64,000 nucleotides of DNA from positions 62,001-126,000 of the forward strand of contig NZ_JAPZDS010000005.1 of NCBI RefSeq assembly GCF_029813115.1. Reading direction: 5' to 3'. The position numbers were made by a program, and so were the translations under genes. This DNA is from Aureimonas sp. SK2. GTDB lineage: Bacteria; Pseudomonadota; Alphaproteobacteria; Rhizobiales; Rhizobiaceae. The notes beneath the pieces are model-generated. The model made no database searches and was not told the DNA's origin. It was given only the letters and a program-made list of their open reading frames with translations. Positions 1,861 to 7,427 of the stretch are shown piece by piece. The stretch's first letter is position 1, and each line of letters begins with the position of its first letter.

Positions 1861-3384
1861 TCACTTCACGCGGCGCAGGCGCGGCGGGGCGCTTGCTCCC
1901 CGCGGCTTGGCCGTTCCCGCGCCGGTGCGCCAGTTGCTGCCGGCGATGGTCACGACGCGGTTGCCCCGGAAGTCGGTCTCGGCGGCAATGTAACCTCGCT
2001 CGGCCATCCAGGTGAGAAGGAAGCGGCCGCGCGAGGGCGAATGGCTGCCGTAGGCCCGCGCCAGCACCTCGTCCCCGGGGCACGGTTCGGCGTCGCGCGC
2101 GGCCTTGGCGAGCAGGAGGTAGACGCCCTGCATATCCTCCGGCAGTTCCTCCGAGCGCGCGACGACCTGGCCCCAAGCCTCGTCCTCCTCGCCGTCCGCT
2201 CCGACACCGGCGCGCGCCAGCGCCAGCTTGCGGCGGAAGGCGCCGAGATCCAGCGCGCCCGGCGACAGGCGCTTCAGGCGGCAATGGGTCAGGAAGTCCT
2301 GGTAGAGCGTCTGGACCGGACGGAAGGCGGCCTCGGGGTCGGCCATCAGCTCGGCGAAGATCGCGTCGAGACCGGCCTGCCGCTCGGCGATCGTCGCCTC
2401 GTCCTCCTCCGGTTCCTCCTCCATCGGCGCCGGCGCGGCAAAGCGGGGCGCGGACACGCGCTCCAGAAGCTCGCGCGTCGCCACCGCCGGCTCGCGCCGC
2501 ACCGGAGCCGGCAGCGGCTCCGGCTCGTCGGCGCCGGCGGTGAAGATGAGGTCCGCCATCTCGGCCGGCGTCGCTTCGGGCAGCGCCATCAGCACCGGCC
2601 GGCCGGAGCGACCGGCCGTCTCGACCGGGCCGATTCGGAGCGGGATCGGACGGCGCGACAGGGCGGGGCCGAGCGCCACGAAGTGGCCGGGCTCGAGGTC
2701 GCGGAAGCGCTCGGCCTGGCGTCGGTCGAGGCCGAGGAGATCGGCCGCGCGCGCCATGTCGATGTCGAGGAAGGTGCGGCCCATCAGAAAGTTCGACGCT
2801 TCGGCCGCGACGTTCTTGGCGAGCTTGGCGAGGCGCTGGGTCGCGATCATGCCGGCGAGCCCGCGCTTGCGGCCGCGGCACATGAGGTTGGTCATCGCGC
2901 CGAGCGAGATGCGCCGCGCCTCGTCGCCGACTTCGCCCGCGATGGCCGGGGCGAAGATCTGCGCCTCGTCCACGGCGATCAGCATCGGGAACCAGTGGTG
3001 CCGGTCGGCGTCGAAGAGGCCGTTGAGAAACGCCGCCGCGCACGACATCTGAACCTCGGCGTCGAGCCCTTCGAGGTTGAGGACGACGGACGCGCGATGC
3101 TGGCGGATGCGCGTCGCGATGCGGGCGAGTTCCGCGGGCGTCCGGTCGGCGTCGACGACCACGTGTCCGAACCGGTCGGAGAAGGACACGAAGTCGCCTT
3201 CCGGGTCGATGATCGCCTGCTGCACCCAGCCGGCGCTCTGCTCCAGGATGCGGCGGAAGAGGTGCGACTTGCCCGAGCCGGAATTGCCCTGCACCAGAAG
3301 GCGCGTGGACAGGAGCTCCTCCAGGTCCATCTCCGCCGGCTCGCCCGTGGCGGTCGTTCCGAGATCGACGGCGACCTTGGTCAA
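1861..3384 (-). CDS. HerA/DUF87-type ATP-binding protein
   Basis: 507-residue P-loop ATPase of the HerA-FtsK superfamily. Walker A 'GNSGSGKS' is at residues 33-40 and Walker B 'LIAVDEAQIF' at about 135-144, followed by a 'MCRGRKRGLAGMIATQR' segment like the sensor/arginine region of HerA helicases. Residues 290-350 are acidic, Pro-rich and probably flexible. The C-terminal 100 residues ('SPSRGRFLLTWMAERGYI') resemble a winged-helix DNA-binding module. HerA proteins translocate DNA, usually with NurA nuclease; no nurA is present here. Related orphan ATPases are common in Rhizobiales and their substrate is unknown. The neighbouring GNAT gene lies 61 nt downstream and may be cotranscribed. Confidence 0.82.
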   Translation of the reverse strand: MTKVAVDLGTTATGEPAEMDLEELLSTRLLVQGNSGSGKSHLFRRILEQSAGWVQQAIIDPEGDFVSFSDRFGHVVVDADRTPAELARIATRIRQHRASVVLNLEGLDAEVQMSCAAAFLNGLFDADRHHWFPMLIAVDEAQIFAPAIAGEVGDEARRISLGAMTNLMCRGRKRGLAGMIATQRLAKLAKNVAAEASNFLMGRTFLDIDMARAADLLGLDRRQAERFRDLEPGHFVALGPALSRRPIPLRIGPVETAGRSGRPVLMALPEATPAEMADLIFTAGADEPEPLPAPVRREPAVATRELLERVSAPRFAAPAPMEEEPEEDEATIAERQAGLDAIFAELMADPEAAFRPVQTLYQDFLTHCRLKRLSPGALDLGAFRRKLALARAGVGADGEEDEAWGQVVARSEELPEDMQGVYLLLAKAARDAEPCPGDEVLARAYGSHSPSRGRFLLTWMAERGYIAAETDFRGNRVVTIAGSNWRTGAGTAKPRGASAPPRLRRVK

Positions 3385-4297: not shown

Positions 4298-4470
4298 CGG
4301 GGCTGCCGCCCCGGTCCCAGCTCGGGAAAGAATTCCCGAACCCTTCTTTTCGTTTGAGATTTTCCAAGATCCAGGAGGGCCACCGGCCCTCCTGGATCTT
4401 GGACACTCCTCGAATGAGGAGGGTCCAGGGAAATCATTTCCCTGGCGGGGTGCAGGGGCAGCGCCCCTGC
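4298..4470. repeat. Cluster of six consecutive perfect hairpins (REP/BIME-like element)
   Basis: Six perfect inverted repeats follow each other in 173 nt between udgX and the lyxose-isomerase gene: 4298-4313 (6-bp stem), 4322-4339 (7 bp, loop AGAA), 4363-4403 (19 bp, loop ACC), 4406-4421 (6 bp, loop GAAT), 4425-4445 (9 bp, loop TCA) and 4452-4470 (8 bp, loop AGC). No protein-coding frame across it looks real. It lies just downstream of the udgX stop, so it may end or stabilise that transcript. The multi-hairpin build resembles bacterial intergenic mosaic elements. No second copy was noticed in the window. Confidence 0.75.
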
Positions 4471-4487: not shown

Positions 4488-5966
4488 TCACCCCAGCGCG
4501 ATCTCGGGCACGTAGGCCTTGGCGCGGTCCATGTCGGCGTGGAAGGCTTCGCGCTCGCGGGCCTGGGCGTCCGGGTCGGGCAGGCGCAGGATGTAGGCGG
4601 GGTGGACGGTGACAAGGAGCTTGGTGTCGCCGCCCGGTAGGTCGATGAGCCTGGAGCGGGTGTCGCGGATGGTGACGGTCTTGCCGAGCACCGAGGCGGC
4701 GGCGGTGGCGCCGAGCGCCACGATCAGCTTCGGCTTGATGAGTTCCCGCTCCTGCTCCAGCCACCAGCGGCAGACCTTGACCTCGCCCATGTTGGGCTTG
4801 GCGTGGATGCGGCGCTTGCCGCGCGGCTCGAACTTGAAGTGCTTCACGGCATTGGTGACGTAGGCCTGGCTCCGGTCGATGCCGGCGGCCGCCAGCGCCT
4901 CGTCGAAGACCTTGCCGGCGGGGCCGACGAAGGGTTCGCCAGCCAGATCCTCCTGGTCGCCCGGCTGCTCGCCGACGAAGATCACGGGCGCGTCAGCCGG
5001 CCCCTTGCCGAAGACGGTCTGGGTGGCGGGCTCCCAGAGCGGGCAGGCCTTGCAGTGCCGCGCCTGTTCGCGCGCCTCCTCGATGTCCTCGGGCGGCTTG
5101 TTGAAGCCGTTGAAGACCGGGACCGTCGATGCCGCGCGTGCCATGTCGTTGCGCTCCGCCTGTTTCTCGTGGCGGAAACTCGGAAGCGTCGGCTGGGTTT
5201 CGATCATGCGGCGCTGCGCCGCCTCCGCGCCCCGGATCAAGGGCTCGATCAGCGTGGCTTCGGGCAGGTTGTGCCAGTATTTCTTCGGCATCTCGGCCTG
5301 CATCGCCTTCACCTTCAGCCGCGCGGGGTTGAAGATCGAGGCGTAATAGGTGAGCCAAAGCGCCTCCATGTCGTCGTCGGCGGGCTTCTGGCTCGGGTCG
5401 GCGCCCGGTGCGAACACCATCTCGACGCCGTCCCAATGGACGGAGCGCTTGGGCGTCAGGATGCTCCAGATCATGCCGGGAAAGCGGCGCATGAAGAAGG
5501 GGGCGGTGAGTTCGACGACGTGATGGAAGGGCTCGAACCAGGCGATGTACTGGCGCTGGCCCTCGGCGTCCTCGATCTCGCGAAAGCGCACGAAGGCCTT
5601 CATCTTGTGGCTGTCGCGATAGACCGCCTTCTGCATCTCGACGGCGCGGCGCGTGTCCGGGTCGGAGACGATCTCCAGGAGCTTCTTCTCCTCCTGCAAC
5701 CGCCAGAGGAGGCGATAGGCGAAGACGAAGCGTTCGGGGTCGGCGTGGCAGATCAGCTTGCGCGCGACGTCCGGAAAGGCTTTCGGCACGTTGAACGGCG
5801 GGGCATCGGCGGGGCGCTCAGGGATCGGTTCGGCAAAGAGCGGCACGGGGTCCTCGCCGACCGCGAAGGCCATCCCTTCCGGCGGAACGCCGAGCGCCAG
5901 CGCCGTGCGGGCCGCCTCGCGCCAGCCGTCGAAATCCGCCGGGTGGTCGAGGCGCGCCAGAAACAT
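4488..5966 (-). CDS. udgX: DUF4130 domain-UdgX fusion (uracil-DNA-binding family 4-like glycosylase)
   Basis: 492-residue fusion. Residues 1 to about 270 match the DUF4130 (TIGR03915) domain; residues 290-492 are a UdgX-type uracil-DNA glycosylase. Visible UDG motifs: 'GEQPG' at 332-336 and 'VHPAYILR' from 454. The UdgX-specific R-loop 'KRRIH' is at 384-388; in mycobacterial UdgX the equivalent His makes a covalent bond to the uracil-derived abasic sugar in DNA. Cys305, Cys308 and Cys399 are candidate Fe-S ligands, and His376 sits where family 4 UDGs usually have another Cys. The start shares one base with the stop of the radical SAM gene (TGATG), indicating translational coupling. Role: recognition and capture of uracil in DNA, probably during damage. 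Confidence 0.9.
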   Translation of the reverse strand: MFLARLDHPADFDGWREAARTALALGVPPEGMAFAVGEDPVPLFAEPIPERPADAPPFNVPKAFPDVARKLICHADPERFVFAYRLLWRLQEEKKLLEIVSDPDTRRAVEMQKAVYRDSHKMKAFVRFREIEDAEGQRQYIAWFEPFHHVVELTAPFFMRRFPGMIWSILTPKRSVHWDGVEMVFAPGADPSQKPADDDMEALWLTYYASIFNPARLKVKAMQAEMPKKYWHNLPEATLIEPLIRGAEAAQRRMIETQPTLPSFRHEKQAERNDMARAASTVPVFNGFNKPPEDIEEAREQARHCKACPLWEPATQTVFGKGPADAPVIFVGEQPGDQEDLAGEPFVGPAGKVFDEALAAAGIDRSQAYVTNAVKHFKFEPRGKRRIHAKPNMGEVKVCRWWLEQERELIKPKLIVALGATAAASVLGKTVTIRDTRSRLIDLPGGDTKLLVTVHPAYILRLPDPDAQAREREAFHADMDRAKAYVPEIALG

Positions 5967-7210
5967 CAGAAGAGGCTCAACTGCTCGGCCTTGGGCGCCA
6001 CCAGCCCGCGCAGGTTCTCCCGGTCGGTCAGCCCGCCCGGCGTCCAGTCCAGCGCCTGCACGAAAGGGCGGACCTTTTCCACGGAGTGACAGAGGCGGGC
6101 GACGTCGTCGAGGCGCAGCGACCGGTGGCGGCGGGTGGACAGGATGCGGTCCACCGCCTTGGTGCCGAAGCCCGGCACCCGGAGCAGCATCTCGCGGTCG
6201 GCCTTGTTGACGTCGACCGGGAACCGGTCGCGGTTCTTCAGCGCCCAGGCGAGCTTGGGGTCGATCGCAAGGTCCAGCATCCCGTCCGTGCCGCCCGAGA
6301 CGATCTCGTCGCGCCCGAAGCCGTAGAAGCGCATCAGCCAGTCAGCCTGGTAGAGCCGGTGCTCGCGCATCAGCGGCGGCTTGGACACGGGCAGGCGCGA
6401 GGAGGAATCGGGGATCGGCGAGAAGGCCGAATAATAGACGCGCCGCAGCCGGTAGTTGCCGTAGAGGTTTTCCGAACGGCCGAGGATCAGGTCGTCGCTC
6501 GCCCCGTCGGCCCCGACGATCATCTGCGTGGACTGGCCGCCCGGCGCGAACTTCGCCGGCTTGGCGCGGTCCTTCGCCTCACCCTTGTGCTCGTCGATCT
6601 TGAGGCGGAGATGGCCCATCGAACGCTTGATGTCGCGCGGCTTCTTTTCGGGCGCCAGCGCTTCCAGCGCGATGTCCGTCGGCAGCTCGATGTTGATCGA
6701 CAGGCGGTCGGCAAAGAGCCCGGCCTCCTCGATCAGCTTCGGCGAGGCGTCGGGAATGGTCTTGAGGTGGATGTAACCCGCGAAGTTCTCCTCCATCCGC
6801 AGCAGCCTAGCGATGCGAACCATCTCCTCCATCGTGTAGTCGGAGTTGCGGATGATGCCGGAGGAGAGGAACAGACCCTCGATGTAGTTCCGCTTGTAGA
6901 ACTCCATCGTCAGCTTCACGACCTCCTCCACCGAGAAGCGGGCGCGCGCCACGTTCGAGGAGGAGCGGTTCACGCAGTAGACGCAGTCGTAGATGCAGAA
7001 ATTGGTCATCAGGATCTTGAGCAGCGAGATGCACCGCCCGTCCGGCGCATAGGCGTGGCAGATCCCGGAACCTTCGGTGGAGCCGATGCCCTTCGTCTTC
7101 GTCGAGTCCCGCTTCGATGTCCCGCTGGAAGCGCAGGAGGCATCGTACTTGGCGGCGTCGGAGAGGATCGCCAGCTTCTGCATCAGGGTCGGTTTGCTCA
7201 TATCAGACAT
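5966..7210 (-). CDS. Putative DNA modification/repair radical SAM protein (TIGR03916 type)
   Basis: 414 residues from ATG 7210. The radical SAM cluster motif is Cys72-Cys76-Cys79 ('CIYDCVYC', CX3CX2C); extra conserved Cys are at 26, 51 and 60. A helix-hairpin-helix region ('VNKADREMLLRVPGFG') begins near residue 334 and suggests DNA contact. The last five residues are QLSLF, which fits the bacterial sliding-clamp-binding motif QL[SD]LF. TIGR03916 proteins are usually paired with DUF4130/TIGR03915 proteins, as here, and their chemistry is not established. A LexA box lies 6-20 nt before the ATG. A second in-frame ATG is at 7201. An upstream extension past the LexA box is possible but unlikely. 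Confidence 0.88.
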   Translation of the reverse strand: MSDMSKPTLMQKLAILSDAAKYDASCASSGTSKRDSTKTKGIGSTEGSGICHAYAPDGRCISLLKILMTNFCIYDCVYCVNRSSSNVARARFSVEEVVKLTMEFYKRNYIEGLFLSSGIIRNSDYTMEEMVRIARLLRMEENFAGYIHLKTIPDASPKLIEEAGLFADRLSINIELPTDIALEALAPEKKPRDIKRSMGHLRLKIDEHKGEAKDRAKPAKFAPGGQSTQMIVGADGASDDLILGRSENLYGNYRLRRVYYSAFSPIPDSSSRLPVSKPPLMREHRLYQADWLMRFYGFGRDEIVSGGTDGMLDLAIDPKLAWALKNRDRFPVDVNKADREMLLRVPGFGTKAVDRILSTRRHRSLRLDDVARLCHSVEKVRPFVQALDWTPGGLTDRENLRGLVAPKAEQLSLF

Positions 7211-7215
7211 ATAGT

Positions 7216-7230
7216 GTTCCCGCTTCGTTC
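7216..7230 (-). promoter_or_regulatory. LexA (SOS) box, GTTC-N7-GTTC
   Basis: The plus strand reads GTTC at 7216-7219, seven bases, then GTTC at 7227-7230. GTTC-N7-GTTC is the established alphaproteobacterial LexA operator. It ends 5 nt before the ATG of the radical SAM gene and overlaps its GGGAAC putative ribosome site, so LexA would block transcription of the radical SAM-udgX operon until DNA damage. Exact match to the core; function inferred. Confidence 0.75.
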
Positions 7231-7427
7231 GGACCATGCGCAGGGCGCGCTTATCCACCGGCGGGCGATCCCGGCGCCCAAGTGCCGCACCCGTTCAGTC
7301 GGGGTTCAGGTTGCGCAGTCCACCTTACGGACCATGGATGGAACCGGACACGAGGTTGCCGGTTCCTGCGGTCCGCGTCCCGGCCGTCAGCCGCGGCGTT
7401 ACTCCGCCTTTTTGGGAGAAGCCCTTC

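Follow-up and report, generated by a model that had tools for sequence, protein, structure and literature searches.

The locus lies on the minus strand of a 64,000-nt window (the whole stretch of DNA analysed here) from Aureimonas sp. SK2, and consists of a gene for a radical-SAM protein followed by one for a DUF4130-UdgX fusion, with a LexA box ahead of them. The features are, in the order of transcription:

7293..7307, minus strand: second GAACN7GAAC match, GAACCCCGACTGAAC (exact match, without conservation)
7216..7230, minus strand: LexA (SOS) box GAACN7GAAC, GAACGAAGCGGGAAC (exact match and conservation in relatives)
5966..7201, minus strand: TIGR03916 radical-SAM gene, likely start MSKPTLMQKL at 7201, alternative ATG at 7210
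7031..7135, minus strand: extra conserved C26, C51 and C60, with H52 (invariant in a 52-sequence alignment)
6974..6997, minus strand: CX3CX2C motif CIYDCVYC, C72/C76/C79 as numbered from the ATG at 7210 (invariant residues)
6128..6223, minus strand: putative helix-hairpin-helix (HhH) region, FPVDVNKADREMLLRVPGFGTKAVDRILSTRR (weak Pfam HHH_3/HHH_5 matches; PGxG invariant)
4488..5966, minus strand: DUF4130-UdgX fusion gene, 492 aa (TIGR03915 and TIGR03914 profiles)
5247..5966, minus strand: DUF4130/TIGR03915 domain, residues 1-240 (TIGR03915 and PF13566)
4491..5096, minus strand: UdgX domain, residues 291-492 (TIGR03914; match to M. smegmatis UdgX)
4803..4817, minus strand: UdgX R-loop KRRIH with the cross-linking histidine H388 (read from the sequence)

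The two genes have base 5966 in common, which belongs to both the stop codon of the radical-SAM gene and the ATG of the fusion (TGATG, a one-base overlap). Overlaps of -1 (47 pairs) or -4 (8 pairs) were found in 55 of the 101 pairs measured in relatives. The start of the radical-SAM gene is likely to be at 7201, because this keeps the box-to-ATG distance of L001 (14 nt). The nearest relatives are Aurantimonas species, with at most 86% identity. In five Aurantimonadaceae genomes (L008, L009, L010, L011 and L012) the DUF4130-UdgX gene is displaced from the radical-SAM gene, by 1.3-2 kb or past the flank, and two of these five displaced genes have a GTTCN7GTTC box of their own. This separation, with an own box in just two of the five, counts against the explanation as an SOS operon. 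Downstream of the udgX stop, by about 90 bp, lies a perfect 18-bp inverted repeat with a 3-nt loop (4364-4402, CCAAGATCCAGGAGGGCC), which occurs at a single locus genome-wide and is devoid of the T-run of a standard terminator. A gene for a HerA/DUF87-like ATPase (1861-3384, minus strand) is also found downstream of the operon and shows no sign of belonging to it.

The radical-SAM protein scores 566.8 bits against TIGR03916 (rSAM_link_UDG, cut-off 343.5), which places it within this family. The cysteines of the CX3CX2C motif are invariant in the 52 aligned sequences and in all 17 of a cross-phylum alignment. The additional C26, C51, H52 and C60 are shared by the different phyla, the divergent Gemmatirosa sequence being the exception, and it is possible that the three cysteines, together with H52, form a second cluster or a hydrogen-donor site. 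An HhH region had been reported for this protein in the sequence-only reading, and this holds in part: the PGxG hairpin is invariant among the 52 sequences, but the profile match is weak (HHH_3, E=0.0015, below the Pfam cut-off). The best fold matches of the structural model (pLDDT 79) are general radical-SAM enzymes, HydE, PFL-activase and viperin among them, and none is a DNA-repair enzyme. The weak HhH match and these general fold matches of the model may both be counted against a role in DNA repair.

The N-terminal part of the fusion scores 214 bits against TIGR03915 (cut-off 112) and 135 bits against PF13566 (DUF4130, cut-off 27), and the C-terminal part 331 bits against TIGR03914 (UdgX, cut-off 190), all within the respective families. 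The family assignments made in the sequence-only reading, as well as the one-base overlap, are thus confirmed by the profile scores and by the TGATG at 5966. M. smegmatis UdgX matches the UdgX domain with E=3.7e-48, and the motifs GEQPGDQED (motif A, GEQPG), KRRIH and HPAYILR (motif B, HPxxxLR) are all retained. H388, which corresponds to H109 of M. smegmatis UdgX, the residue through which that enzyme binds covalently to AP-DNA (PMC10359453), is invariant in 56 relatives. The AlphaFold2 model of the fusion (pLDDT 90, pTM 0.52) has two well-predicted domains joined by a low-confidence linker, with pLDDT of about 90-98 for residues 1-190 and below 50 for linker residues 279-286. A search of the solved structures found no sequence match for DUF4130, and in the Foldseek search with the fusion, matches to its UDG domain took up the whole list. 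The residues common to fused and standalone DUF4130 are R127, F128, P146, R161 and W231, according to a rough cross-phylum alignment with one misplaced row. Since so few residues are universal, a role in binding or substrate handling is favoured over catalysis, and DUF4130 is more likely to be a binding or substrate subunit than an independent enzyme.

From the end of the LexA box at 7216-7230 it is 14 nt to the likely ATG at 7201, and a TATAT stretch comes after the box. There are four matches to GAACN7GAAC in the window against 1.5 expected, which is not significant on the window alone. The copy at 7293-7307 was considered as a functional box and is probably due to chance, as close relatives carry a single box. 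A pattern scan of the window found no E. coli-type LexA box near the operon. The lexA match in the same genome is preceded, 43 nt upstream, by the same type of box (GAACACAAACGGAAC), and a direct repeat of GAAC or GTTC with N7 is the alphaproteobacterial LexA motif given in PMC8565304. In 77 of 80 relatives, GAACN7GAAC was found as an exact and equally oriented match at most 60 nt from the matched start, where 0.24 would be expected from Markov-simulated upstream sequences, while the mirror pattern was found in 2 of the 80. Because close relatives are over-represented among these 80 loci, 26 alphaproteobacterial carriers sampled evenly from the phylum were added, and all 26 have an N7 direct repeat upstream (20 GAAC and 6 GTTC on the coding strand). 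The operon therefore has what marks members of the alphaproteobacterial LexA regulon, a GTTCN7GTTC direct repeat near the start that is conserved in relatives, and the box noted ahead of it in the sequence-only reading is real. The comparison strongly supports the predicted SOS control of the operon.

Other lineages carry boxes of other types. Among 17 beta- and gammaproteobacterial carriers, an exact CTGTN8ACAG, the box of the E. coli type, is present upstream in 12 (0.04 expected by simulation) and a one-mismatch copy in three more. Two Bacillota-type GAACN4GTTC boxes precede the radical-SAM/DUF4130 pair on L150, a faecal contig that has no annotation and probably stems from a Bacillota host. 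On L152, a faecal contig deposited as phage, the gene directly upstream of the pair on the same strand (303-932) encodes a LexA-like repressor of the S24 type. The type of box thus tracks the LexA of the host, so the regulation was kept while the motif changed. Pairs without UdgX mostly retain an SOS box (G023, G046, G082, G190, G196, G225, G298, G099 and G183). As for separate UdgX genes, only one of 13 has an SOS box upstream, and in the genome concerned DUF4130 has decayed to a remnant. A decayed cassette is seen in L178 (G071, 1-2801), with a LexA box, a stop-bearing DUF4130 remnant and an intact UdgX; its radical-SAM gene is gone.

Co-occurrence was surveyed at curated cut-offs in 300 genomes of the phylum, including that of SK2 itself. 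The radical-SAM family is over its cut-off in 53 genomes, DUF4130 in 56 and UdgX in 52. DUF4130 is present in all 53 radical-SAM genomes, Caulobacter being one carrier of both families, and lacks the radical-SAM gene in three genomes, in one of which it lies beside a contig end. The search across genomes for conserved pairing and LexA boxes, proposed along with the sequence-only reading, bears out the co-occurrence with DUF4130 in all 53 radical-SAM genomes and the boxes at the frequencies given above. UdgX, on the other hand, is over its cut-off in 40 of the 53 radical-SAM genomes but not in the other 13, and occurs in 12 genomes which do not have the radical-SAM gene. A standalone DUF4130 of 239-265 aa is encoded after the radical-SAM gene in Acetoanaerobium, Acinetobacter, Parabacteroides, Bacteroides and three faecal contigs. 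No UDG domain was found in these partners, which include those of Bacillota, Bacteroidota and Acinetobacter. The Acetoanaerobium noterae record (L144) is filed as a 2.6-Mb plasmid and looks like a chromosome. Traced on a tree with 58 radical-SAM rows, the presence or absence of UdgX changes seven times, at least five of the changes being forced by well-supported branches; the tree was rooted at midpoint, which does not fix the ancestral state. The best reading of this distribution is that UdgX would be an optional addition to a system whose core lies elsewhere.

We consider it probable that the locus is an SOS-induced DNA-repair operon, in which a radical-SAM/DUF4130 core acts on a DNA lesion and UdgX is an accessory trap for uracil and AP sites. 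LexA would sit on the promoter beside the start codon and be released upon DNA damage, and the radical-SAM protein and DUF4130 would then be made as a coupled pair, presumably a conserved functional unit. The radical-SAM protein probably recognizes the lesion through its HhH region, DNA being the presumed substrate, and a 5'-deoxyadenosyl radical would then act on the lesion, by analogy with spore photoproduct lyase. DUF4130 would be its obligate partner, more likely as a substrate or binding subunit than as an enzyme of its own. UdgX, held by a flexible linker and fused in many Proteobacteria, appears to be an accessory domain. To judge by its invariant motifs, it probably excises uracil and caps the abasic site covalently, an activity shown for M. 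smegmatis UdgX (PMC10359453). It could shield abasic sites during error-prone synthesis, and would not be the only source of substrate for the radical enzyme. More specifically, we tentatively propose that the pair is a widespread two-subunit, SOS-controlled enzyme which directly reverses or converts a DNA lesion not assigned to any known repair enzyme, and that in some Proteobacteria the optional UdgX takes over uracil-like or abasic products. As SOS control stays on the pair across at least three types of LexA box and outlasts the loss of UdgX, the chemistry is to be sought in the pair itself, in a model such as Caulobacter, rather than in the repair of UdgX adducts.

Other explanations fit the data less well. 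The pair could convert a damaged base to a uracil-like base or an abasic site, which UdgX then removes or caps; an ordinary UDG would do so in lineages that lack UdgX. UdgX is fused to the obligate partner DUF4130, its repeated gain and loss fits an optional downstream step, and many genomes have other UDG-family matches; but standalone UdgX exists where there is no pair, with no SOS box except in the cassette remnant, and we regard such a hand-over as doubtful. The operon could also belong to an SOS-induced programme of stress response or defence and modify a target other than damaged DNA, be it a nucleotide, an RNA or a protein. The fold matches of the radical-SAM model are generic enough for this; however, the HhH-like region and the fusion to UdgX point to DNA and, as regards defence, no PADLOC model matches, which makes this explanation unlikely. 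Least probable is the proposal of the sequence-only reading, a damage-induced pathway of two steps in which the covalent adduct of UdgX with DNA is processed by the radical-SAM enzyme. The adduct that UdgX forms is indeed covalent and stable (PMC10359453), and many Proteobacteria encode the three domains together after a single SOS box, but the distribution argues against this as a general role: DUF4130, and in most cases the SOS box, is retained in the 13 radical-SAM genomes that have no UdgX over its cut-off, the pairs of Bacillota (Clostridia among them), Bacteroidota and Acinetobacter do without UdgX, and 12 genomes retain UdgX without the radical-SAM gene. SOS-controlled radical-SAM and DUF4130 genes thus occur repeatedly without the presumed source of the adduct.

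A defence system was rejected, as the locus matches none of the PADLOC models. A phage origin was also rejected: the PHROGs matches are weak, and the viral sequences comprise one full match in viral_contigs, which resembles host DNA next to a Mu-like prophage, and some unannotated faecal contigs. On the IMG/VR contig L198 (1-7025), Mu-like phage genes adjoin a radical-SAM gene with 63% identity, and this contig is probably host DNA at the edge of a prophage.

With regard to known systems, the names given by NCBIfam to TIGR03914-16 already tie the three families together. The COG1573-COG4277 operon, in which we take COG4277 to be TIGR03916, and the gene pair CAC3343-CAC3344 combine, like this locus, a UDG- or DUF4130-type gene and an HhH radical-SAM gene under the control of LexA or a LexA-like repressor. 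What sets this locus apart from them is its fusion of DUF4130 with UdgX and a GAACN7GAAC box of the alphaproteobacterial type. LexA control of the operon is reported or predicted for Alphaproteobacteria, Verrucomicrobia and Bacteroidetes in the SOS-related passages of PMC8565304, and for Clostridium in those of PMC3828012. The former place COG1573-COG4277 in the Bacteroidetes SOS regulon and cite regulon papers on Verrucomicrobia and on Caulobacter/Alphaproteobacteria for a UDG-based system under SOS control; in the latter, LexA control is inferred for CAC3343-CAC3344 of C. acetobutylicum. The same passages describe a UDG-based excision system or leave the function of the second gene unknown (PMC8565304, PMC3828012), and our literature search found no paper assigning a chemistry to the radical-SAM/DUF4130 pair.

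Both the pairing and the SOS link are therefore already known, and this locus adds one more case to an SOS operon described before. The pairing with DUF4130 had rightly been taken as known from the family, as the NCBIfam names and the neighbourhood analysis of PMC3765255 attest. The view that the SOS link was undescribed is mistaken, since it is preceded by what PMC8565304, PMC3765255 and PMC3828012 say on these genes. In its account of the SOS network, PMC3765255 groups DUF4130, by gene neighbourhood, with UDGs and with radical-SAM proteins like SplB, the same domain association as at this locus; DUF4130 is predicted there to be a mutagenesis-related enzyme, whereas its few universal residues make it look more like a binding subunit here. 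M. smegmatis UdgX shares with the fusion a UDG domain of about 44% identity, the GEQPG motif A and the KRRIH R-loop with its cross-linking histidine, but stands alone as a protein of some 210 aa, while here the domain is fused behind DUF4130 and shares an SOS operon with the radical-SAM protein. Spore photoproduct lyase (SplB) is likewise a radical-SAM enzyme with a CX3CX2C motif and a link to DNA damage, and is SOS-regulated in several species according to PMC8565304. A sequence search of the solved structures gave no match at E≤1, and SplB is not among the best 50 fold matches of the model (pLDDT 79). Compared with SplB, the radical-SAM protein of this locus is set apart by its HhH C-terminus, its extra conserved cysteines and its DUF4130 partner.
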